From: a virus
Reading direction: 5' to 3' (one strand)
Virus record (IMG/VR): IMGVR_UViG_3300037042_003004
Coordinates: 1 to 47,735 of that record
DNA length: 47,735 nucleotides
The translations under genes were made by a program, and so were the position numbers. The stretch's first letter is position 1. Every line of letters starts with the position of its first letter. The notes under the pieces are model-generated. The model was given only the letters and a program-made list of their open reading frames with translations. It was not told where the DNA came from and ran no database searches. Shown piece by piece: positions 6,601 through 47,711 of the stretch.

Positions 6601-8140
6601 AAACCCTAAAGATTCTCAAGCAGAGTTTAAGATGAATATACCGTTTCCAATGAAACTGTATGAGTACGCTGCAGGATATAGAGTATGGGAAAATTCTGAC
6701 CCATATAACTATACTACTGATGAATTTAAGTTTAATGTAGGTGGAGTGGCATCTGCATTGATTAGACAGTTAATTACTATGTGGACAGCTGAGACTAGAA
6801 TAAACTTGTCTTTCGCATTTAATACAGAAGCTCCCGATAAAGCTGTTTCCAACCAATTCTTTCCATTGGTAAACTACATTCCTAGACCTCATAAATGGAA
6901 GCCAGGAAGTGAAGATGATAGAGCTGCGTTTGAAGGTAATAACAACCTAAATCCTTTATACTATGATGATTATGGTTTTGAGTGGAATCTATGGAATTAT
7001 GGTGGGTTTAGATTTAAGCCACAAGTTAATTTAGATTATTCAAAATCACAAACAACAATTATATACACTACTGTTCCATTACTTGGTTTTGAGGAGCAGA
7101 CTCAATTTTGTACTAGAATACTATGGTCAGAAAAGAGACCTATAAATGTTCAGAATACACCTACGGTAAAAACGTTTCCTCCATTGAACTTATATGATAT
7201 ATCTGATGATACAGGGGAAATAAAATTTGCTTGGAGTGCTTTATCTCAAGATAAGGGTAACAACTTATACGCTTTTACTAATAGTGGAGTATGCTTACTT
7301 CTTGTTGATAAGAGAATTATACATGAGATAAATGCAAATGAACTAGCTACAATAGGTTCTGACGTAGGAGGGATATTAAATCAGCTATGGATAGATAGAA
7401 CTATTGGTATGACTGACGAGACATGGCGAAGTTGGGGTGAATACTCAAATTCAATATTATTTGTGAATGATGTTTCTGCATATGCTTTTAATAACAATGA
7501 GCTTTTAGAGATAGCAAGAACAGGATTCTTTGATTTATTACAAAGAAAATTCATTTCTAAAATAGGAGTTGGATATAGTTCTGAACTATGTGGTGTTTAT
7601 AATTTAAAGAATAAAGAGTATATCTTCAATGTTAAAGACGGAGAAGAATTTAGCACGCTTATTTATGGTATGGACCAAGCTGCTCTTCAGTGCCAAAGTT
7701 CTTATAACTATGATAAATATCTTCAGTTAAAGAACAGATTATTCGGGATGAAGGATGGTGTTACTTACGAATTAGGCATTGGAAATCAATTGAACGGAGT
7801 AGATGTTGAGGCTTATTTAACAGGTTCTTCTGATAAAGAGATTTACTTTGATAAAGAATTTATTAGAATAAGAGTAAATTCAAACTTCAAACCTGAAAAG
7901 ATTTACTTCTATAGTAGCTATAAAGATTACCTCATTGATAACTTTTCATCTGTTGTTGATGCAGTATTGAATCCAATAGCAATAAAAGATTATTTTGGAT
8001 ACGAATGTTACATACCAAGAAAATTAGTAGCCCCTCATTTTAGGGAACAAGGAAGAGTAGTTCTTTTTAAGATAACTAATTCGGCTCAAGAAGAGTTTCT
8101 TGTGACTAGTACAGGAGTGCAATACAAAGCATTAAAATAA
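3602..8140 (+). CDS. Giant tail nozzle/muzzle-like structural protein (1512 aa)
   Basis: A very large beta-rich protein. The N-terminus has DVRTYEKGISSDINDELAS, a motif seen at the start of large tail proteins of Bacteroidota podophages. Repeated Tyr/Asn/Asp/Gly-rich strands and loops follow throughout, for example SYSYSYRYVSTAGDRTPFSP at about 225-245. Late in the protein are segments like beta-propeller blades (DKGNNLYAFTNSGVCLLLVD; SNSILFVNDVSAYAFNNNEL). Placement after three ring proteins and before the internal virion proteins corresponds to T7 gp12 (nozzle) and to the crAss-like muzzle. No tape-measure or sheath genes are seen, consistent with a short tail. There are no signal peptide or membrane segments. 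The role is inferred from order, size and the propeller-like stretches. Confidence 0.65.
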   Translation: MKQQHHPIDVRTYEKGISSDINDELASQSQEGVHVDALNMRSMPMDGDNLAKKKIKGEVVKFDNIDNRCFLPVPGTISPSYECMMTLEVNGFIVESWASSNNLTEPPFIRIDGKIVCMSFLLPFELSHPLQYDKNENCVSGEMYITNNNTPPIVLSVKDLMDNSGMTPGSSCTQVYFDDFNLDEYVIQTTGTLFKPAFIKQVAGASPSTFDAVFGANGLSVGSYSYSYRYVSTAGDRTPFSPITELIPVVMNNSSQFDPYFPNSRTFSAEPNITSSSPYGNHIRIKYDNNNEFSFIEVRRDAWYAGDTVDTPPISEIIGSFSILDGLNIVDVLDRADPLFEGSVILTLEEQTEQTSSIKRAKSLRYFNERLYLMNIGYVSRDLGGEIGFVDSINPIFPTIQKIGKQGHKHVYNAAMHKSNMRGERTGFAVVLHDKSNNTSFAVEIPNSSNIEFPNRRDIVSPETLGTSYFGVVQASTVDGTIDLTHEVFDHYDATRRTEQGLPGNDGLISFRQTDPYATLNPTSQLDTNSTYQYQINGKAAIGGQTSGSALYNPKGFGLDYYAQGVAFKGITTYPAAWAEGFSVIQTEPAKRVVAQGLGFYNLTEADDGFGVDASKSTTAFSAYFPDLELLFPDVYEDFINNPSTFKLQLVSPLGYFTEVYSHENPLSLRDSGADMITYARILRDGTNFAELPIQAEFNPAISGLGKAGIPFPGPSDDFDYVAYGRYSNFITQDSPAFPSNAQGNRIFDIIDAQNMATYSGIQSYLRVETDPTTWGTIYNTSGPNSFPSANLDANEDGVMEWREPMYVINLIKEDANINPGLTTQYKYSSAYTKFKSRILESSGQLNQTVLLVSERWEDCIPRITGQVFNAYSSLYRFVSVVDLNGLETKWLNVTFESAPFVSTLLANMALNGFDTVTDASGSYVVHGIYRSQQTADNLCPIFSLIFNNTLGYTQFTVPAFGSNVYVLYDNRIPVRVFCGDTYINESVWAVMDNEFGNNGNPKDSQAEFKMNIPFPMKLYEYAAGYRVWENSDPYNYTTDEFKFNVGGVASALIRQLITMWTAETRINLSFAFNTEAPDKAVSNQFFPLVNYIPRPHKWKPGSEDDRAAFEGNNNLNPLYYDDYGFEWNLWNYGGFRFKPQVNLDYSKSQTTIIYTTVPLLGFEEQTQFCTRILWSEKRPINVQNTPTVKTFPPLNLYDISDDTGEIKFAWSALSQDKGNNLYAFTNSGVCLLLVDKRIIHEINANELATIGSDVGGILNQLWIDRTIGMTDETWRSWGEYSNSILFVNDVSAYAFNNNELLEIARTGFFDLLQRKFISKIGVGYSSELCGVYNLKNKEYIFNVKDGEEFSTLIYGMDQAALQCQSSYNYDKYLQLKNRLFGMKDGVTYELGIGNQLNGVDVEAYLTGSSDKEIYFDKEFIRIRVNSNFKPEKIYFYSSYKDYLIDNFSSVVDAVLNPIAIKDYFGYECYIPRKLVAPHFREQGRVVLFKITNSAQEEFLVTSTGVQYKALK

Positions 8141-8144
8141 TCAT

Positions 8145-8152
8145 TAACTTTG
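8145..8152 (+). promoter_or_regulatory. Candidate -7 box (TAACTTTG)
   Basis: TAACTTTG fits the Bacteroidota -7 consensus TAnnTTTG and lies 14 bases before the ATG of the 191-residue protein. No convincing TTG is seen at the -33 position, so this is only a half-promoter by the host consensus. Confidence 0.35.
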
Positions 8153-8166
8153 ATAAAAATATAATT

Positions 8167-8742
8167 ATGGCAGACAAAGATAAAGTTGCAGGAGAGAAAA
8201 AGGGAGGTTTAAAAAACATGTTTACTGGAATAGCAGGAAGCACTCCTCAACAAGCAGCAGCAGGTTTTGCGTTAGGTGCAGCACAGACAGGTATTGGAAT
8301 GGCTCAAGAGAAGAAAGCTGAGGCTTTACTCCCTGCTGTAGAAGATAAAATGAGCCGTGATTATTTAGAGCTAATAAGAAGAAAGAGAAGGGCTGCTGAA
8401 ACAGGCACAAGTACTACTGCTGAAAGAGGTAATTTTAGGCAGGTGCTGAAAGATGTTTTAGACAAATCATTTAAAGGTGGAGGTGGTGGAAGCACTAGCG
8501 TTTTATCTCAACTTTTAGCTGACCAAAATGCAGCATTAAGAGATAGAAGAGCGCAAGAGCAGCTAGCATATGCGCAAGAAGAAGGCAAAAAAGTGGAAGA
8601 AATGGCAGGAATTAAAAGAGAGCTTGGTATGTTTAGAGCAAATCAAAAATTCGCTAAAGCTGCTACTAATAAGGCTGCAGGTTCAACAAATATGTTGGCT
8701 TCTATTGGAGGAAAACCAGCAACACCTAAAGACGAAGCGTAA
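8167..8742 (+). CDS. Internal virion/ejection protein, gp14-like by position (191 aa)
   Basis: A small-residue-rich hydrophobic stretch near the N-terminus (QAAAGFALGAAQTGIGMAQ, about 28-47) looks like a glycine-zipper membrane-insertion helix. A long, charged, coiled-coil-like region follows, with a GGGGGS hinge near residue 105 and another helix (DRRAQEQLAYAQEEGKKVEE). T7 gp14, which forms the outer-membrane pore during DNA ejection, has nearly the same length and is likewise the first of three internal core proteins. Here the next two genes are also long helical proteins of increasing size. The stop overlaps the next ATG (TAATG). The assignment rests on order, size and the N-terminal hydrophobic helix. 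Confidence 0.5.
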   Translation: MADKDKVAGEKKGGLKNMFTGIAGSTPQQAAAGFALGAAQTGIGMAQEKKAEALLPAVEDKMSRDYLELIRRKRRAAETGTSTTAERGNFRQVLKDVLDKSFKGGGGGSTSVLSQLLADQNAALRDRRAQEQLAYAQEEGKKVEEMAGIKRELGMFRANQKFAKAATNKAAGSTNMLASIGGKPATPKDEA

Positions 8743-32857: not shown

Positions 32858-32940
32858 CTTCCAGTTGTTTTATAGATTAAAAATCCCATTCCTATTCCTG
32901 CTAGGAAATATAATAATTTTTCATAATTCTTATTTTTCAT
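32854..32940 (-). CDS. Micro membrane protein (28 aa)
   Basis: A 28-residue frame: MKNKNYEKLLYFLAGIGMGF, then LIYKTTGR. It has a charged N-terminus, one short hydrophobic helix and a basic end. Its ATG sits inside the last codons of the Nmad1 gene and its TGA overlaps the ATG of the 66-residue gene, so it is coupled on both sides and uses the only gap between them. This context is the evidence that it is real. Function unknown; it is similar in plan to five other small membrane proteins of this phage. Confidence 0.55.
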   Translation of the reverse strand: MKNKNYEKLLYFLAGIGMGFLIYKTTGR

Positions 32941-33658
32941 CTTTACTATTTTTTAAGTAAGACTTTAAAATTGCAGTGTAGTTGATTAAATCCATAAGCG
33001 TATCTTCAATAGCTTCATCCTTAACTTTTGCTTCCTTCTGCAATAATGTTCCAATTCTTGATATTTTATCAGCCATACGAACAACTATTCCTTGTTCAAC
33101 ACTTACTCCTGCAATTGTGGAGTTACGAAAGTTAGCATAAGGGTCTTTGTTGCTCCCTCTATAATCGCTATTCTTTGCTATAGCAGTTTGTAAGCATTGA
33201 CCGAATGTAAACTCTAGGTCTTCTAATAAAATATTCTTTTGAATTGGAGCTGTGCTTATATCCTTAGGAGGATTTATAATATTTCCTGCCCACATCTTGC
33301 CCTCAAGCTTTTTTAATGATGCTATCTGCTCTCTTTCTAATCTTTCCATAAAGGTGTCTTTTTCAGAATCTAACACTTTTTTTACTGTAGCATTTTCTTT
33401 TCCATAATCCAATACTTTGTTCATAGTTTTTTTAGCCATCTGCATATTTGGGGGAACAGATATCCAATCATATTTAACTACCTCTCTACCACCTGATTTT
33501 CTAATTATCTTACCTTCTTGTAGGACAACAGAAGCCATTGTATGTACATGGTGTTTTTTGCATAAAGCACATATCCCAAATTTTTCTTTTGAGCTTATTA
33601 AAGCATGAAGCTCCATAAGGAAATTAAAATAATTTTGTTCAGTCGTTTTATTTCTCAT
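32930..33658 (-). CDS. Nmad1/DUF1599-domain nucleotide-metabolism protein (242 aa)
   Basis: The C-terminal 100 residues match DUF1599 (nucleotide modification associated domain 1): KNSDYRG (162-168), PYANFRNS (173-180), VVRMADKISRIGTLL (192-206) and IEDTLMDLINYTAIL (217-231). This is the all-alpha, acidic-helix pattern of NTP-pyrophosphatase-like proteins found in phages that alter nucleotide pools or bases. The N-terminal part is unusual: CALCKKHHVH (Cys30, Cys33, His36, His37, His39) could bind zinc. Its leader carries a copy of the 14-base junction motif 12 bases before the ATG. Confidence 0.75.
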   Translation of the reverse strand: MRNKTTEQNYFNFLMELHALISSKEKFGICALCKKHHVHTMASVVLQEGKIIRKSGGREVVKYDWISVPPNMQMAKKTMNKVLDYGKENATVKKVLDSEKDTFMERLEREQIASLKKLEGKMWAGNIINPPKDISTAPIQKNILLEDLEFTFGQCLQTAIAKNSDYRGSNKDPYANFRNSTIAGVSVEQGIVVRMADKISRIGTLLQKEAKVKDEAIEDTLMDLINYTAILKSYLKNSKDEK

Positions 33659-33670
33659 GATTTTTGTTTT

Positions 33671-33684
33671 TGTGGAACGTGAAT
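33671..33684 (-). repeat. Junction motif A, copy 6 (14-base core)
   Basis: TGTGGAACGTGAAT on the + strand, that is ATTCACGTTCCACA in the direction of the genes. It lies immediately after the stop of the 105-residue gene and 12 bases before the ATG of the Nmad1 gene. Confidence 0.85.
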
Positions 33685-34013: not shown

Positions 34014-36428
34014 TTAAAAGGGTTGAGAATTTTGGTAATCAAAATCATTATTCGCTGTTAGTGCTGATTGAGTATATGTCTGCTCATCAGATTCTTCATT
34101 TTGGTTTAACCAAGATGGTATTTGAGGATTGAACTTAAGTAAAATATCTTCTAACTCTCCATCTCTGTGCTTGGCTACTATAACATACCCATCTTCAATC
34201 GTAGGACTAACATCTCTTTCTTCTTGCGACATATAATAATTAGGTCTATAAAGAAACATAACTATGTCAGCATCCTGTTCAATGTCCCCTGACTCTCTTA
34301 AATCAGAAAGGATAGGCTTTCTATCAGTACGATGCTCAACAGACCTTGAGAGCTGCGCTAAAGCTATTACAGGTATCTTCAAATCATTAGCCATATCTTT
34401 TAGCTTTCTTGATACCTCTCCAACCTCATTCGTTCTATTTTGACTTCCAGGTACAGTTATCTTTTGTATGTAGTCTATTATAACGTAATCAAGCCCCTGC
34501 GATAGTTTCGTCTTATAAACCAATGATAATACATCTGCTAGTGTGAAAGCTCCTGCTACTATCTTAAATTCTGCCTTTGATATTCTTTTTCTTGAACGCT
34601 CATACATTCTTGACTCATTAATATCTAGCTTACCTCTTTTGATAGAGTACCCTTTAACCTTGCTGTCTACAGACATTATCCTTTTCATTACTTGCACTTC
34701 ATCCATCTCGCAAGAAATAAATAATCCTTTCTTATCATCATTGATGCTTGCGTTTTTTAGTATGCCAAGTGCGAATTGTGTGTTATGAGTTAATGTACAA
34801 CCATCTGTAACATAAAGACAGTCTTCTGCGTCAACAGATATACACGTCATTTCTTCTTGCGTTCCTAGCTTCTCAATGTTTGTGATAAATTTAGCGTGAT
34901 ACTTTTTTTCAGGGTTGTACTTTGCTAAATGTTTCACTGAGCTTACAGGCGTTATATATTCAGGAAGAGAAAGATACATTCTATATGAATCCTTACAATC
35001 AACTTTTACACCCTCTTTTCTGTAGTGAGTTTTCTTCACTTTAAAAGAAGCTTTCCCACCTAGCCCTCGAACTAACTCAAGAATGTCATCACACAACCTT
35101 TTTGACGAGGTTGAATACTCAATTCCATTTGCACCACTTGTAACGACAAATCCATCTGTATCAATCAATCCTCTTAGCAAAGAAATTCTAACAGTAATTG
35201 TATTGTATAGAAACTCTTTAGGTATAAATTTCTCATAAGAACGTAAGCCTAGTAGCCCAATCTCCTTGATATATTCTTTCATGCCACCTAGGTAGTAGTC
35301 ATATTCGTCTATACGTCTAATAGAACAATCTTCAGGAAGACATAGCTCAACTTTTTGAATCACATCGTTCTCTGAATTTGAAAAACGTATTCCTCCTGAT
35401 GAGAAACCTCCATCACCTATAAGCGCACCTAAAAGATATGGGTCAATAATAGGTTCTTTATACTTGAATTGAAGTGGCTCACACATTCTTATAGAAAAAT
35501 TCTTTCTACCATCATTTAGCATGACATTCCCAATCATTTCGTTTGTAGTTATTACAATTGCTTCCTTTCCTGCCTTCCTTGTGCTTCTAGTTGAAACCTC
35601 CCATTGATGCTCTAGCCCACAATCTACATAAGACCTATCATCAAAATGAATCCTGTAAGTGTCCTTGATTCCTTGAGGGAACACATTAGTAACGTTACAT
35701 TCTTTACCATTGCTTCCTAACACCTTATCTCCTGCTTTTATTTCACCCATTAATTTGTATCCATTAGATGTGTAAACCTTAGCATTGTTTGACAGCTCTT
35801 TACCCATAGCAGGTCTAGCTGCAACAATAATAAAGTTTGTTGGTTGCATACCTGATGTAATCGTATCAATCCTATTGTATCCCATTTTAATACCGTTGAT
35901 GCCCTCATTAGAGGAAGCGCTTACCATTTTAGCATCTAGCTCTACAAGTAAATCATCATTTGAATAATTTTTTTTATTTATTATTGATTTAAATTTATTA
36001 TCTAAAATATGATTCTGTAACGTGTTCAATACATTTTTAGGGTCATAGTCAATTGCTTGAGACATCTTTATTATGTCGCCACCAAGGTCTATATGCTCAT
36101 GCCTAATAGATTCACAAGTCAAAAGAGATATTGCAGAATCTAAATCATTCCTATCTCCATAGGAAAACATTGAGTGAATTTTAGTTAAATCATGCAGAGC
36201 ATTATTCTTATTTAAAGACTTAGCCTTTCCAATCTCTTTGTATGTAGTTATTAAATTTATAGGCTCACCACTTATGTAAAGTGTTTTAATAGCCGTAAAT
36301 ATTAATTTACATTCAGCCGTAACAAACATATCATCAGAGATTACTGACATGATATCATGTATTATAGATGGGCTTAGTAAGATTGAATTAATGATTAACT
36401 GTTCTGAACGCAACTGCATTTTGTCCAT
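34014..36428 (-). CDS. dnaB: Replicative DnaB-type helicase with P-loop class 3 intein (804 aa precursor)
   Basis: The N-terminal domain (about 1-160) is the DnaB primase-binding helical bundle. The RecA-like domain starts with MQPTNFIIVAARPAMGK (194-210). At Lys210 the Walker A is interrupted by an intein of 339 residues (211-549), and the helicase resumes with TQFALGILKN at Thr550. Downstream are the EMDEVQVMKR motif, Walker B LDYVIIDYIQ, ALAQLSRSVEHR and DLRESGDIEQDADIV with the arginine finger region. Removing the intein leaves 465 residues, normal for DnaB. The enzyme unwinds DNA 5' to 3' at the fork and is inactive until spliced, because the intein separates GK from T. The gene starts one base after the stop of the possible loader gene. 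Confidence 0.95.
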   Translation of the reverse strand: MDKMQLRSEQLIINSILLSPSIIHDIMSVISDDMFVTAECKLIFTAIKTLYISGEPINLITTYKEIGKAKSLNKNNALHDLTKIHSMFSYGDRNDLDSAISLLTCESIRHEHIDLGGDIIKMSQAIDYDPKNVLNTLQNHILDNKFKSIINKKNYSNDDLLVELDAKMVSASSNEGINGIKMGYNRIDTITSGMQPTNFIIVAARPAMGKELSNNAKVYTSNGYKLMGEIKAGDKVLGSNGKECNVTNVFPQGIKDTYRIHFDDRSYVDCGLEHQWEVSTRSTRKAGKEAIVITTNEMIGNVMLNDGRKNFSIRMCEPLQFKYKEPIIDPYLLGALIGDGGFSSGGIRFSNSENDVIQKVELCLPEDCSIRRIDEYDYYLGGMKEYIKEIGLLGLRSYEKFIPKEFLYNTITVRISLLRGLIDTDGFVVTSGANGIEYSTSSKRLCDDILELVRGLGGKASFKVKKTHYRKEGVKVDCKDSYRMYLSLPEYITPVSSVKHLAKYNPEKKYHAKFITNIEKLGTQEEMTCISVDAEDCLYVTDGCTLTHNTQFALGILKNASINDDKKGLFISCEMDEVQVMKRIMSVDSKVKGYSIKRGKLDINESRMYERSRKRISKAEFKIVAGAFTLADVLSLVYKTKLSQGLDYVIIDYIQKITVPGSQNRTNEVGEVSRKLKDMANDLKIPVIALAQLSRSVEHRTDRKPILSDLRESGDIEQDADIVMFLYRPNYYMSQEERDVSPTIEDGYVIVAKHRDGELEDILLKFNPQIPSWLNQNEESDEQTYTQSALTANNDFDYQNSQPF
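34782..35798 (-). mobile_element. Class 3 intein with LAGLIDADG endonuclease in DnaB
   Basis: The intein is residues 211-549 of the precursor. Position 1 is Glu (ELSNNAKVYT), not Cys or Ser. The class 3 triplet is present: Trp276 in block B (GLEHQWEV), Cys529 at block F position 4 (MTCISVDAED), and Thr547 before His548-Asn549 in block G (CTLTHN). The +1 residue is Thr550. Two LAGLIDADG motifs, YLLGALIGDGGF (Asp339) and LLRGLIDTDGF (Asp425), keep their acidic residues, so the homing endonuclease may be active. Confidence 0.9.
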
Positions 36429-39056: not shown

Positions 39057-39347
39057 TTACCAAATGAACTTTTCAGTTGGTTTTTGCTCTTCATGAGCTG
39101 TGGAACGTGAATCGCTTGTTCGTGATGAATACCTCATAAGTATGTCATGCAATTCTACATTCAACATTCTTGATAATACAATAAATACATACGGGTCTTT
39201 TGGAACAATATCTCCACTCATTAAGTTGTAAATATTTTGTACTGCACTCCAATTTCCAGGCGCACCATTATCTATCATAGTCTTGGCTATGTGCTTGGCT
39301 TGAAATCTATCTTTCATCATCAAGTCTTTAATTCCTTTTGCTTTCAT
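39057..39347 (-). CDS. XRE-like small DNA-binding protein (96 aa)
   Basis: Residues about 10-70 (MKDRFQAKHIAKTMIDNG; NWSAVQNIYNLMSGDIVPKD; VFIVLSRMLNVELHDIL) follow the XRE helix pattern: helix 1-2, turn, recognition helix, then two capping helices. It is a likely repressor or activator. The last 20 residues read straight across a copy of motif A (SDSRSTAH) and are probably unstructured. A TATATTTG box lies 17 bases before the ATG, so this may be the first gene of the recombination operon. Confidence 0.55.
   Translation of the reverse strand: MKAKGIKDLMMKDRFQAKHIAKTMIDNGAPGNWSAVQNIYNLMSGDIVPKDPYVFIVLSRMLNVELHDILMRYSSRTSDSRSTAHEEQKPTEKFIW
39099..39112 (-). repeat. Junction motif A, copy 5 (inside 3' end of a gene)
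   Basis: The same 14-base core as the other copies. It is followed on the + strand by CGCTTGTT, where copy 4 has CACTTGTT, so the two share 21 bases with a single mismatch. Unlike other copies it lies inside an open frame, 63 bases before the rad52-like ATG. Confidence 0.85.
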
Positions 39348-42126: not shown

Positions 42127-42138
42127 AGTATTTATTTT

Positions 42139-42152
42139 TGTGGAACGTGAAT
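42139..42152 (-). repeat. Junction motif A, copy 4
   Basis: The same 14-base core, starting within the stop codon of the 83-residue gene and ending 12 bases before the ATG of the 78-residue membrane protein. Flanking bases CACTTGTT match copy 5 with one difference. Confidence 0.85.
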
Positions 42153-43300: not shown

Positions 43301-43690
43301 CTAATTTAATAGAGAAAAAATTTGTTCTTTTTTCTTTTGGTCAATGTGTTTGCTTGACAGTTGCACTAAATCTATATCCAATTGGATATGAAGCCCTGTA
43401 TTGGCTATGTTCATTAGTAATAAGGTATTATTTACAGCTAAAATTGACCCAGGTATGTAATCTACGGGTATGGGTAACATGGGAAGTTTCTTATCTTCTA
43501 GCACTGCTTCCAATACATTTTCCCAAAATTGATACCCTTGTTTAGATTCGTCCCAATCAAATAAGCACATTAAATCATGCGCTATACATAGACTTGGATT
43601 ACTTAAATCGTCTGTTTTTCTGACGTTATTAATAACTGCATCTACATATCTAGGAGGTAAATAATTAAGTAAGGATTCTAATATTGTCAT
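43301..43690 (-). CDS. Uncharacterised protein (129 aa)
   Basis: The N-terminal half is helical with aromatic residues (LLNYLPPRYVDAVINNVRKT; SLCIAHDLMCLFDWDESKQG; YQFWENVLEAVLEDKKLPML). The C-terminal half has hydrophobic strands (GSILAVNNTLLLMNIANTGL). Not recognised. Its ATG overlaps the TGA of the 43-residue membrane protein (ATGA), and it is the last gene before a terminator. It therefore belongs to the same transcript as the amidoligase genes upstream. Confidence 0.6.
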   Translation of the reverse strand: MTILESLLNYLPPRYVDAVINNVRKTDDLSNPSLCIAHDLMCLFDWDESKQGYQFWENVLEAVLEDKKLPMLPIPVDYIPGSILAVNNTLLLMNIANTGLHIQLDIDLVQLSSKHIDQKKKEQIFSLLN

Positions 43691-43984: not shown

Positions 43985-44007
43985 TTGTGGAACGTGAATT
44001 ACGCTCC
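43985..44007 (-). repeat. Junction motif A, copy 3 (23-base form)
   Basis: A 23-base match to the copies at 45538 and 46561. It covers the last codons (Gly-Ala, stop) of the 503-residue amidoligase and runs to 33 bases before the next ATG. Confidence 0.9.
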
Positions 44008-45510
44008 TAAAGATAGAGAGTCTTGAAGACCATCTGTAGGCACATCTGTAAGGTCAACAAAGCTTAACTTTTTATGGTTGAAGTTTCTACTAAACGTTAC
44101 AAACATTCCTATCTTATTGATAATTTCAGCTTGAGTATATACCTTTCTTAAGTGTAGATATAACTTAGACTTTTGATTGCATAGCATTTTTAACACATCA
44201 GTCTCTGACTTATTGATGTTGTTACACATAATACGCATTAAGTCTTGTCTCCATAATAGATTCTCTATGCTTTTTACAGCACTGAAGATTCTTATCTCAA
44301 GAACGTTACGTTTGATGAATACTGCAGCGTATTTATCAGCATCAGAAGATAGGTATTGATGCTTCTCTTTAGCCATAGAGTAATGCTTATCAATTCTGCT
44401 CTCATACATAGAGTATAACAAAGGCATGAAGGCACTAAGTCCCTCAAACAATTCTTTAGTATTGTATTCGCTAGAGGCAATATTAATATGCCCTCCACAG
44501 TTGCTAGATGACTTTGCATTTATCAATTGCTGAAGGTCTTCACTGTTACTAATCTCCTTTTCCATTTGATTAGAGAACATGTCAAACGCAGGGGAAACTA
44601 ACTCATACCCTATAGACCTATCAAGGCTAGAGTCAGCCTCTTTAATCCATTCTGTCTCTCTATACAAAACTGTAGCTTCTATACTAGAAGCTTCTTTGTC
44701 TTCCTTCTCAATCTCGAATCCAATAGAGAACTTTGGTGTTTCATGTGAAAATCTGAATACTCTACTAAGTGAGTGGTATCTAGCCGTTGTAACTTGCGTT
44801 CCCCAACTACAAGTTCTATCATTGTACACAAACCCATGAGCCTCTGCTATAGAGCCATTATAATACCAAGTATCATTTTCATCTACATAAACGGCACTAC
44901 AGTTTACAAACCATGATGATTCATCATCTGTATCTTCACTCCAATACCCACAGTGTAAATCATCTTGCTCTCTGTCTATGTAGCAATTATGGTAATCAGA
45001 ATAAACAACAGCGCTTGAGTATAGACTTCTATTACGCTCGTAGTGGCTCTTATGAAAGTAATTTCTTCCATACATAGCTGTAGCATGTGCAATAAGTATT
45101 CTTCCATCAGAGAATCTTGAATTAACAGTAATGTCTGTTATTTCAGCAGCATATTCACCATATACAAGGTAACTCAACATTGATGAGCGATTTCTTGATA
45201 TAGCCTCTAATGATGTTGAAGCAACGTAGTCACTTCCATTATAATCATCATCTGTTAAACAACCTACAGGGTAATATGTAAGCATATTATCGTAGTCTAA
45301 TCCTGTTGCTGTGATTACGATACAATTCATTCCAAGATACTTAGTAATTGTAGCTAAAGGTGACTCATAAGGAATTACTACTGTTCCATTTGGTTCGTAG
45401 CTTCCCCATTGAACTCCAATAGCATTTTCACCCAGGTTATCTAGGATTGATTTAATATGATTGGACGTTAATCCAAATGCTTTAATATAGCATGGTCTAT
45501 TTATTTTCAT
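43999..45510 (-). CDS. Amidoligase-family (COOH-NH2 ligase) protein with long N-terminal domain (503 aa)
   Basis: The C-terminal 245 residues carry the Amidoligase_2 core: FSIGFEIEKED (261-271, metal/ATP-binding Glu residues), EADSSLD (291-297), GYELVSPAFD (301-310) and CGGHINIASSEYN (338-350). They end with a helical part containing VLEIRIFSAVKSIENLLWRQ. These proteins are ATP-grasp/glutamine-synthetase-like ligases that join an amine to a carboxyl group. The first 250 residues are an extra domain rich in Tyr/Asp/Cys, with ILIAHATAMYGRNYFH and repeated Y-x-D/E-Y-H elements, perhaps substrate-binding. It is paralogous to the 378-residue gene and lies directly downstream of the glutamine amidotransferase, which could supply ammonia. 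The substrate is unknown. Confidence 0.82.
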   Translation of the reverse strand: MKINRPCYIKAFGLTSNHIKSILDNLGENAIGVQWGSYEPNGTVVIPYESPLATITKYLGMNCIVITATGLDYDNMLTYYPVGCLTDDDYNGSDYVASTSLEAISRNRSSMLSYLVYGEYAAEITDITVNSRFSDGRILIAHATAMYGRNYFHKSHYERNRSLYSSAVVYSDYHNCYIDREQDDLHCGYWSEDTDDESSWFVNCSAVYVDENDTWYYNGSIAEAHGFVYNDRTCSWGTQVTTARYHSLSRVFRFSHETPKFSIGFEIEKEDKEASSIEATVLYRETEWIKEADSSLDRSIGYELVSPAFDMFSNQMEKEISNSEDLQQLINAKSSSNCGGHINIASSEYNTKELFEGLSAFMPLLYSMYESRIDKHYSMAKEKHQYLSSDADKYAAVFIKRNVLEIRIFSAVKSIENLLWRQDLMRIMCNNINKSETDVLKMLCNQKSKLYLHLRKVYTQAEIINKIGMFVTFSRNFNHKKLSFVDLTDVPTDGLQDSLSLGA

Positions 45511-45537
45511 GATTTTGAATTTAAATTATTAATACTG

Positions 45538-45560
45538 TTGTGGAACGTGAATTACGCTCC
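45538..45560 (-). repeat. Junction motif A, copy 2 (23-base form)
   Basis: Identical 23-base sequence covering Gly-Ala-stop of the amidotransferase gene and continuing into the leader of the 503-residue amidoligase gene, 27 bases before its ATG. Confidence 0.9.
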
Positions 45561-46532
45561 TAAATCGCCTTTGTAACTACCATCTGCATTAAGAAATTCT
45601 TTTGTGCATTTACGGCACATATCCATATTAAATTCAACTGCATATGTTAAATGCGCTTCATACTCTACCTCTTGACAGCAAGAGCATGTCCCAAGTTTCT
45701 CATCTTCAAATCCAAATGCATCTAGGTTTGCTTGAGCAAGAGTTATTTGTTGTTCTATTTTATTTGTAGCTTTTTCTTTATCTATTCTGCATGAATAACA
45801 TTGATAGTCTGCTTTCTCTTTGACTGAGTATAGTTTACTTGAGCATGTATCACAGAACTCGCTGTCTGCTGAATACCATGAATTACCTCCTCTTGCCCAA
45901 GCGTCTGCTTGTCCTGATGTATATCCTGCACTACCACTACCAAAAGACTTGTATTTTTTAACACCACCAAAGTCAACATAGTTATTAACTTTCTCATAGC
46001 TACGGTTAGAGAACCAACAGCCCATATACCAATGACCTGCTTCTTCGTTAACGATACAGTATTCATCTTGAGCATTAAGGAACACAAGCTTACTTCCTTT
46101 GCCAATAAAGTCAGCCAACATATCCATGATATCAGGATTATGCTCGAATCCTGGCTTTAGATTCTTAAGTATATTCTCATTGAACATGTATGTATCGGAA
46201 TGTAACTTAGAGTCTTCTATATTGTAAATCATTCCATTGTGTATGAATCCGATATTATCGTCTACAAGGAACGGATGACAGTTGCTCTCATTTACAAGTC
46301 CATGTGTTGAGATACGGAAGTGAATAAGTATATTATTCTTTTTACCAAAACTTCTCTTGATTTGAATATACGTTTCATAGAAAACATCAAAAGACTTTAA
46401 CTCCTTTGAGGTTTTCATCACTCCATTATCAATATAAAGAATACCTGCACCATCACCATTATTCAACCAACAGTTTTGTAACGCTTCTTTTTTAAGGGTA
46501 GCTACCTTTGTATTTAAAATTGCTATACACAT
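45552..46532 (-). CDS. Class II glutamine amidotransferase with two zinc ribbons (326 aa)
   Basis: The protein starts Met-Cys, so Cys2 becomes the N-terminal nucleophile after Met removal, as in all class II (Ntn) glutamine amidotransferases. The further motifs are HFRISTHG (71-78, glutamine-binding Arg), NCHPF (84-88), FIHNGMI (96-102, the Asn-Gly oxyanion pair) and SDTYMF (112-117). After a Gly/Ser linker come two zinc ribbons: Cys227/230 with Cys245/248, and Cys283/286 with Cys306/309. No synthase domain is fused. It probably hydrolyses glutamine and passes ammonia to the amidoligases encoded on either side. The zinc ribbons could bind the partner, tRNA or the substrate protein. Motif A lies 28 bases upstream of its ATG. 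Confidence 0.9.
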   Translation of the reverse strand: MCIAILNTKVATLKKEALQNCWLNNGDGAGILYIDNGVMKTSKELKSFDVFYETYIQIKRSFGKKNNILIHFRISTHGLVNESNCHPFLVDDNIGFIHNGMIYNIEDSKLHSDTYMFNENILKNLKPGFEHNPDIMDMLADFIGKGSKLVFLNAQDEYCIVNEEAGHWYMGCWFSNRSYEKVNNYVDFGGVKKYKSFGSGSAGYTSGQADAWARGGNSWYSADSEFCDTCSSKLYSVKEKADYQCYSCRIDKEKATNKIEQQITLAQANLDAFGFEDEKLGTCSCCQEVEYEAHLTYAVEFNMDMCRKCTKEFLNADGSYKGDLGA

Positions 46533-46560
46533 TTTATTTTGATTTATTTAGTTTATACTA

Positions 46561-46583
46561 TTGTGGAACGTGAATTACGCTCC
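46561..46583 (-). repeat. Junction motif A, copy 1 (23-base form)
   Basis: The same 23-base sequence, covering Gly-Ala-stop of the 378-residue amidoligase and the leader of the amidotransferase gene. Confidence 0.9.
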
Positions 46584-47711
46584 AAGTTCATTTGAAATAT
46601 TAACACCATTAGACTGAATCTTTTTCAGTTTCTTGATAGCATTTTTTACCTTACTCATTTGCTCGATGTTCTTATCGTTGTACATTTTACTGTACTTAAC
46701 AAAAAGCTCAATCTTTTTTACCATTGTATCTATGGTAAATATTTTACGCATGTGAATGTGTAGCTTACTTTTTGGGTTAGCTATCATCTTAACTACATCA
46801 ATCTCTGATGAGTTAATGTTACTGCACATGATACGCATCAAGTCACGTCTCCATAGAAGATTCCTTACATTCTTTACAGCAGGGAATATTCTAAATTCTA
46901 ATACATGACTCTTAACATATACAGCCGATTGTTTTGTCTGCATTTCGTGATACTTATGCTTTGAATGAGCCTTAGCATAGTACTCTTCAATCCTATTCTC
47001 ATACATAGCATATAGCAATGGTAGGAAAGAACCTAATCCCTCTAACAATTGATTGCTATTGTATTCTGAAGAGCCAAGATTAACGTGTCCGCCACACTTA
47101 CGAGAAGAGTCTGCATTAATCAACTGTTGTAGCGTGTGGCTTGCCTCAATCTCATCTTCTATATGGCTTGAGAATAAATCAAATGCAGGTGATACAAGTT
47201 CATAACCTGTTTTACTGCATAGGCTACTATCATTCTCTTTAATCCATTCTGTCTTGTCATATAGAAAGCGTGCTCTTACGCAATCGTGTGCCTCCCAGTC
47301 TTCCTTCTCAATTTCAAATCCTATAGAAAATTTAGGTGGATTACTTGTGTCAAATCGGAATACTCTATCCATATCTTGATACTCTTCGTTGTAGTCATCG
47401 TCATCATCGTCATCATCGTCATCATCGTCATCATTTTGACCGTAAATTGACTCATGATAAGCTTGGATAATATCCTCTAAATCCAATGTCTTACCTTCTT
47501 CTACAAAGTCAGATGGTGATTCTAGTAATAACAAGAATCGTCCATGGACTATCTTAAAACCATAGTACTCTTGATAAGAGTCACCTGTATAGTTACCACC
47601 TGCTCTATTTAAGAGCCTAATGTATGTATCCCAATCTTGTCCTTGGTCTTCACACTGAATGCCGTACATTCCATCGGCATTGTTTACGAAATTTCTAAAA
47701 AACTGTTCCAT
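46575..47711 (-). CDS. Amidoligase-family (COOH-NH2 ligase) protein with poly-Asp tract (378 aa)
   Basis: The Amidoligase_2 core is clear: FSIGFEIEKED (128-138), ENDSSL (159-164), GYELVSPAFDLF (169-180), CGGHVNLGSSEYN (206-218), VLEFRIFPAVKNVRNLLWRR (260-279). The last corresponds to the IEFR-type helix. The first 110 residues are a different, smaller domain than in the 503-residue paralogue and include 13 consecutive Asp residues (94-106) encoded by a 9-base microsatellite. The two paralogues share about the last 260 residues, so one probably arose by duplication with replacement of the N-terminal part. The gene is adjacent to the glutamine amidotransferase and upstream of it in the same transcript. 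The upstream region lies outside the window. Confidence 0.85.
   Translation of the reverse strand: MEQFFRNFVNNADGMYGIQCEDQGQDWDTYIRLLNRAGGNYTGDSYQEYYGFKIVHGRFLLLLESPSDFVEEGKTLDLEDIIQAYHESIYGQNDDDDDDDDDDDDDYNEEYQDMDRVFRFDTSNPPKFSIGFEIEKEDWEAHDCVRARFLYDKTEWIKENDSSLCSKTGYELVSPAFDLFSSHIEDEIEASHTLQQLINADSSRKCGGHVNLGSSEYNSNQLLEGLGSFLPLLYAMYENRIEEYYAKAHSKHKYHEMQTKQSAVYVKSHVLEFRIFPAVKNVRNLLWRRDLMRIMCSNINSSEIDVVKMIANPKSKLHIHMRKIFTIDTMVKKIELFVKYSKMYNDKNIEQMSKVKNAIKKLKKIQSNGVNISNELGA
47395..47434 (-). repeat. 9-base microsatellite encoding 13 Asp
   Basis: TCATCATCG is repeated without error from 47401 to 47427 with partial copies on each side. It is in frame inside the amidoligase gene and changes only the number of Asp residues when it expands or contracts by 9 bases. 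Confidence 0.85.

Follow-up and report, generated by a model that had tools for sequence, protein, structure and literature searches.

What might a phage make with a glutaminase gene set between two copies of a ligase gene? The question is raised by the IMG/VR virus record IMGVR_UViG_3300037042_003004, whose whole length of 47,735 bases is called the window here. The window holds a cassette of three leftward genes, 41-42 nucleotides apart, which encode, in minus-strand order, a ligase of 378 residues, a glutaminase of 326 residues and a second ligase of 503 residues. All three proteins end in LGA-COOH, a point absent from an earlier, preliminary description of this DNA. The answer that we favour, with some reserve, is that the cassette is a glutamine-dependent amide synthase that amidates carboxylates on two acceptors, and that the tail is a common handling signal. 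The genes and their parts are located as follows.

46575..47711, minus strand: upstream COOH-NH2 ligase with a predicted glutamine synthetase (GS) fold, 378 residues, with a short N-terminal region that contains an Asp-rich run, ending in ...SNELGA
46662..47339, minus strand: core of the 378-residue ligase, about residues 125-350, from the alignment, with residues invariant or near-invariant in 122 relatives
45552..46532, minus strand: class II glutamine amidotransferase (N-terminal nucleophile, Ntn, glutaminase), 326 residues, ending in ...KGDLGA
45606..45854, minus strand: zinc-ribbon-like C-terminal part of the glutaminase with four C-x2-C pairs, from the alignment, conserved in nine of nine clade members
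43999..45510, minus strand: downstream COOH-NH2 ligase with a predicted GS fold, 503 residues, ending in ...SLSLGA
44740..45510, minus strand: long N-terminal region of the 503-residue ligase, from the alignment and a low-confidence model
44071..44739, minus strand: core of the 503-residue ligase, closest to YbdK and glutamine synthetase in the AlphaFold model

Two divergent ligases and a class II glutaminase

The three open reading frames are intact and adjacent on the minus strand, where the preliminary description had placed them. An in-frame TAA precedes the ATG of the 378-residue gene inside the record, the end of which is 24 nucleotides away, so this gene is complete and not truncated there. 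Overall identity between the two ligases is 46%. The motifs that had been named for them, GFEIEKE with its Glu pair, D-SSL, ELVSP and CGGH, are all present, and both proteins carry E-x-R as an additional motif. The assignment of both ligases to Amidoligase_2 stood only in part. In a direct Pfam hidden Markov model search neither window ligase matched PF12224, and the best member of their clade reached only E=0.01. Kinship to the family is indicated by the predicted GS fold and by a profile comparison (hhalign, 96.4%, E=1.2e-9, 159 columns), in which an alignment of the two window ligases and one viral relative was set against phage amidoligases, most of which match PF12224. No convincing PHROG, NCBIfam or PADLOC family was found for the window ligases, and a search by sequence found no solved relative. 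Because no match exceeded the PF12224 cut-off, we class them as divergent GS-fold enzymes near this family and not as its members. Sequence and model together indicate that both are COOH-NH2 ligases of this fold.

The AlphaFold model of the 503-residue ligase has a core (residues about 255-480) with predicted local distance difference test scores (pLDDT) mostly of 85-95. In a fold search against the PDB the top match of this model was YbdK (E 1.4e-4), and nearly all further matches were glutamine synthetases, GmaS and Dop. A slower structure aligner gave YbdK a Z of 8.8 over 188 residues, and its list was likewise filled by the superfamily of GS-like COOH-NH2 ligases, with PafA and glutamate-cysteine ligase among the entries. 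E133, E135, S163, E171, H209, R240, E272 and R274 (378-residue numbering) are invariant in all 122 distinct ligases, both window copies among them, and D161 varies in one; E-x-E belonged to the search pattern for some ligase loci, not for the loci found with the glutaminase. We take these invariant residues to be the E-x-E, Glu, His and E-x-R metal and ATP residues of glutamine synthetase. The ligase cores are intact, as the first reading had it. The window ligases thus appear to share with YbdK-type ligases and glutamine synthetases both the fold and these residues, whereas identity is about 12%, the accessory regions are different and the window enzymes have a dedicated glutaminase partner. 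It was also correct that the two paralogues have differing N-terminal regions. The region is short in the 378-residue copy and long in the 503-residue copy; the long form is common to single-copy relatives in the alignment, and neither a Pfam family nor, with a low-confidence model, a known fold was found for it. At the boundary of this region and the core, the 378-residue ligase has a run of Asp codons (GATGAC repeats; 47387-47435, minus strand), likely a slippage-prone linker.

The middle gene encodes, as judged from its sequence, a class II glutaminase. It has the class II residues first noticed there, Cys2, Arg73, Asn99-Gly100 and Asp113, all of which are invariant in 122 of 122 glutaminases. 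The gene matches GATase_6 (PF13522) by a margin of 0.1 bit (27.1 against a cut-off of 27), and a PDB search with the family profile yields GlmS at 3e-12, and also PurF. For the zinc-ribbon-like part the Pfam support is weak (DZR, E=0.027 in one clade member).

Linkage and repeated origin of the triple

Relatives were searched for with the ligases and, separately, with the glutaminase profile. A ligase lies directly upstream on the same strand in 67 of the 70 distinct glutaminase-seeded loci that have enough upstream DNA, and this count is independent of the ligase search patterns. The conserved unit is therefore one ligase directly upstream of one glutaminase. In a second deep clade of ligases, the glutaminase is found 0.4-4 kb downstream of the ligase. 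A cellular origin was considered and set aside, as a scan of 84,980 prokaryote genomes, which detects only sequences sharing short peptide patterns, gave no relative.

The ligase-glutaminase-ligase triple was found in the window and in the loci L024, L164, L151 and L162. In L099 the additional ligase belongs to the other deep clade and is located 0.8 kb further on. The window ligases are sisters, with a Shimodaira-Hasegawa-like approximate likelihood ratio test (SH-aLRT) support of 97 in a tree of 122 rows and 94/92 in a tree of 33 rows. The upstream copies and the downstream copies of L024, L164, L151 and L162 fall in two separate clades. Approximately unbiased tests on 33 ligases rejected a single clade of all upstream copies (p=0.012) and a single clade of all downstream copies (p=0.0004), and one ancestral triple shared with L024 and L151 was rejected accordingly. 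Because the window copies are sisters and the single-clade topologies are rejected, the triple arose independently at least twice. In both origins the upstream ligase is short (378-447 residues) and the downstream ligase is long (500-575 residues). This recurrence fits two ligases working on one ammonia source. The two origins point to two acceptors and offer a natural comparison for finding them.

A C-terminal tail shared by unrelated enzymes

Only three of about 53 window genes encode proteins that end in GA or AA, and these are the cassette proteins. The idea that LGA is a tail common to the proteins of this phage was thus rejected. Across the lineage both the ligase and the glutaminase end in [LMVY]GA, and the ligase/glutaminase pairs of ends in relatives are QLGA/GLGA, ELGA/YLGA, DLGA/DYGA, EMGA/GLGA, SLGA/FLGA and ELGA/SLGA. 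Some ligases of relatives end in SLAA, DKAA or RKAA. The stretch of the glutaminase from its last Cys pair to the tail is variable in sequence and has 6 to 25 residues, and GA stays terminal. GA or AA ends occur on 15 of 19 cassette proteins in nine genomes, compared with four of 685 other genes, a contrast for which the Fisher p of 4e-24 is quoted only as a scale because the genomes are related. The four others include an FRGA protein encoded directly downstream of the glutaminase in L014 and a KKLGA protein whose gene precedes a ligase gene of L104 by about 1.6 kb. Otherwise, clear Ala-Ala tails are confined in these genomes to the LAA ends of two homologous-looking proteins of 247-249 residues (G001:33652-34401 and G006:33939-34682). 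A search of the literature, covering open papers, found no earlier description of the shared tail.

In the window, the DNA around the three stop codons is also shared. A 26-nucleotide repeat, 23 bases of which are identical, spans each stop.

46561..46586, minus strand: LGA codons, stop and repeat, copy 1 (CTTGGAGCGTAATTCACGTTCCACAA), predicted hairpin with the stop in the loop
45538..45563, minus strand: LGA codons, stop and repeat, copy 2
43985..44010, minus strand: LGA codons, stop and repeat, copy 3

At all three gene ends the repeat is predicted to fold into a hairpin whose loop contains the stop codon (z -2.9 to -5.0). It is therefore worth asking whether an RNA or DNA element lying over the stops, such as a processing hairpin or a recombination repeat, gives rise to the LGA end as a by-product. 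The shared hairpin sequence and the recurrence of its 3' half at other leftward junctions speak for this, but the relatives keep LGA with other codons and other downstream DNA. Their tails use all four Gly codons (GGA, GGG, GGT, GGC) and three Ala codons (GCA, GCG, GCT). Because codons and flanking DNA vary, the tail of the relatives is a feature of the protein, and an effect of a DNA element was rejected for the lineage, although the hairpin repeat does exist in the window. We regard the by-product explanation as improbable. In the lineage of the window phage the tail is conserved at the protein level, on two non-homologous enzymes.

The 3' half of the repeat, ATTCACGTTCCACAA, recurs on the minus strand, with one mismatch in one copy, mostly at junctions of leftward genes (33670-33684, 42138-42152, 39098-39112, 43985-43999, 45538-45552 and 46561-46575). 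These copies sit about 12-29 nucleotides before the next start codon and are a possible leader or regulatory element. Similar sequences, TTCACnnTCAACA, follow the glutaminase stop in the relatives L010 and L019. The 23-nucleotide repeat had no exact match in viral contigs, and no known RNA element was found in the window with Rfam.

The tail resembles the ssrA signal of ClpXP in being a short terminal motif that ends in Ala with a free carboxylate and occurs on unrelated proteins, and some relatives have SLAA. The ssrA signal ends in Ala-Ala, whereas the window tails end in Leu-Gly-Ala. The resemblance to signals of the ssrA type is suggestive, and the tail is probably an ssrA-like degradation signal or a docking signal, docking being nearly as likely as degradation.

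The proposed reaction, its alternatives and the surrounding genome

That an ATP-dependent carboxylate-amine ligase is fed by a glutaminase, as the preliminary description proposed, is well supported, with intact active sites. The glutaminase would hydrolyse glutamine through its N-terminal Cys nucleophile and release ammonia. The GS-fold ligase would use ATP to activate a carboxylate, an acyl phosphate being the most likely intermediate, from which ammonia would displace the phosphate to give a carboxamide. The proteins may form a complex for this purpose. Because the ligase gene is duplicated around the glutaminase, one ammonia source would probably supply two ligases with different N-terminal regions, each with an acceptor of its own. 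The (Leu/Met)-Gly-Ala tail might be a common signal for the joint removal of both enzymes or for docking to one partner.

Several points weigh against this reading. The ligases lack a direct PF12224 match, the Foldseek TM-score of the 503-residue ligase is low (0.24 by query, because half of the model is unstructured) and its Z of 8.8 is only moderate. The structure model of the glutaminase, made from a narrow alignment, has a pLDDT of 52, and the fold therefore rests on sequence. The tail is missing from both proteins of L016 and from the glutaminases of L105 and L108, and the 15 tailed proteins among 19 are not independent events. The ssrA signal depends chiefly on its terminal Ala-Ala-COO-, and a change of the penultimate residue raises the Michaelis constant (KM) for ClpXP (PMC7652416). 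The window tails have Gly at this position, which weakens the degradation view. Finally, the amine substrate of the ligase could be an amino acid or some other amine in place of ammonia.

This last point leads to an alternative that is possible but clearly less probable than amide synthesis, in which the ligase forms a peptide bond between a carboxylate and an amino acid or peptide, as in PafA, glutamate-cysteine ligase and YbdK, and the glutaminase does not feed ammonia but supplies glutamate or acts on glutamine itself. The nearest folds include these three, which use amines other than ammonia, and the 0.4-4 kb spacing in the other deep clade points to looser coupling there. However, a glutaminase gene directly after the ligase gene, as at 67 of 70 glutaminase-seeded loci, usually indicates that ammonia is handed over, and nothing is missing from the Ntn site of the glutaminase. 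A gene for a peptide substrate was not seen as a conserved neighbour of the ligase-glutaminase pair on inspection, which was not systematic, of eight loci. The dead-copy explanation, in which the second ligase is a duplicate that is in decay or has lost its activity and has no separate role, draws on the recent position of the window duplication on the tree and on the loss of much of the N-terminal region from the upstream copy. It is unlikely, since the catalytic residues are all kept in both copies and an independent lineage has also retained two copies, again with the short one upstream and the long one downstream. More unlikely still is that the Gly-Ala tails are themselves substrates, so that the cassette would amidate or extend -GA or -AA C-termini, its own enzymes first, and thereby disable degradation signals that depend on the carboxylate, such as ssrA tags.

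The product might also be an altered host surface or peptidoglycan, for example an amidated stem peptide, which would block superinfection or alter lysis. Two reports suggest wall modification against superinfection for phage amidoligase-glutaminase pairs (phiEco32-type), citing Iyer et al. 2009 (PMC10580990, PMC11318856), and MurT/GatD is described as amidating peptidoglycan by an analogous route (PMC3267633). On the other side, no wall-binding domain was significant in the sequences searched (autolysin repeats, E=0.4-0.6). Modification of the cell wall is a guess, and we hold it to be a doubtful though not negligible candidate. A host protein and a small peptide, which the preliminary description also named, are further candidate targets, as is a heterodimer of the two ligases a candidate assembly. 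A reading as a defence system was rejected, as no PADLOC model matches the cassette.

The enzyme pair itself is already known, and the preliminary description overstated the novelty of the pairing. Earlier reports list an amidoligase with a class II glutaminase in OM43 phages (MEP401/MEP402; PMC10580990) and, in the LUZ24-like phages UFV-P2 and tf, the pair together with ATP-grasp and GGCT-type genes (PMC3890496). Marvin-group mycobacteriophages also carry a PF12224 amidoligase and a PF13522 glutaminase. The window shares with these pairs an adjacent or near-adjacent ligase and glutaminase, the early region and the same catalytic residues, and its glutaminase is 41% identical to MEP402. It differs from them in ligases below the PF12224 cut-off, in having two ligases and in the shared LGA tails. 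The window record, which is probably a fragment, gave no match to PF13535 (ATP-grasp_4), the PF14395 ligase or PF06094 (GGCT); PF13535 was the one ATP-grasp model tried, and it also missed the two phage records in which ATP-grasp-like genes are annotated. In the relative G005 a gene of the GGCT family (PF06094; L014:3822-4109) immediately precedes the ligase gene, as in published amidoligase systems. MurT/GatD is like the window cassette in that an ATP-dependent ligase and a separate glutaminase give a carboxamide. MurT belongs to the Mur ligases and GatD to the class I glutaminases, and neither is known to be homologous to the window proteins. As far as our searches reach, the divergent family below the PF12224 cut-off, the repeated triple and the shared tail are new. 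Phage amidoligase-glutaminase pairs have been noted for more than ten years. A tail on two non-homologous partners offers a handle on the question of their substrate, and it predicts common turnover, docking or self-modification.

In a blast comparison, the structural and replication genes of the window match relatives of 52-65 kb in the same gene order, and the record is therefore read as a fragment, probably of a phage genome of roughly 64 kb. A window protein of 1512 residues had no match among 50,697 deposited phage records, and the lineage therefore appears uncultured. Small proteins with the motif W-x-x-S-x-x-G-x-x-Y/F-W cluster around the cassette in several relatives (window 43301-43690, minus strand; L012:5036-5269 and 7728-8409; L001:7206-7451). 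The gene at 32930-33658 (minus strand) matches DUF1599 (nucleotide modification associated domain 1) weakly and below the threshold. A DnaB-like replicative helicase at 34014-36428 (minus strand) has an in-frame insert with LAGLIDADG_3 and Hom_end domains, apparently an intein, and blast matches the copies of relatives to this helicase over only about 250 residues.

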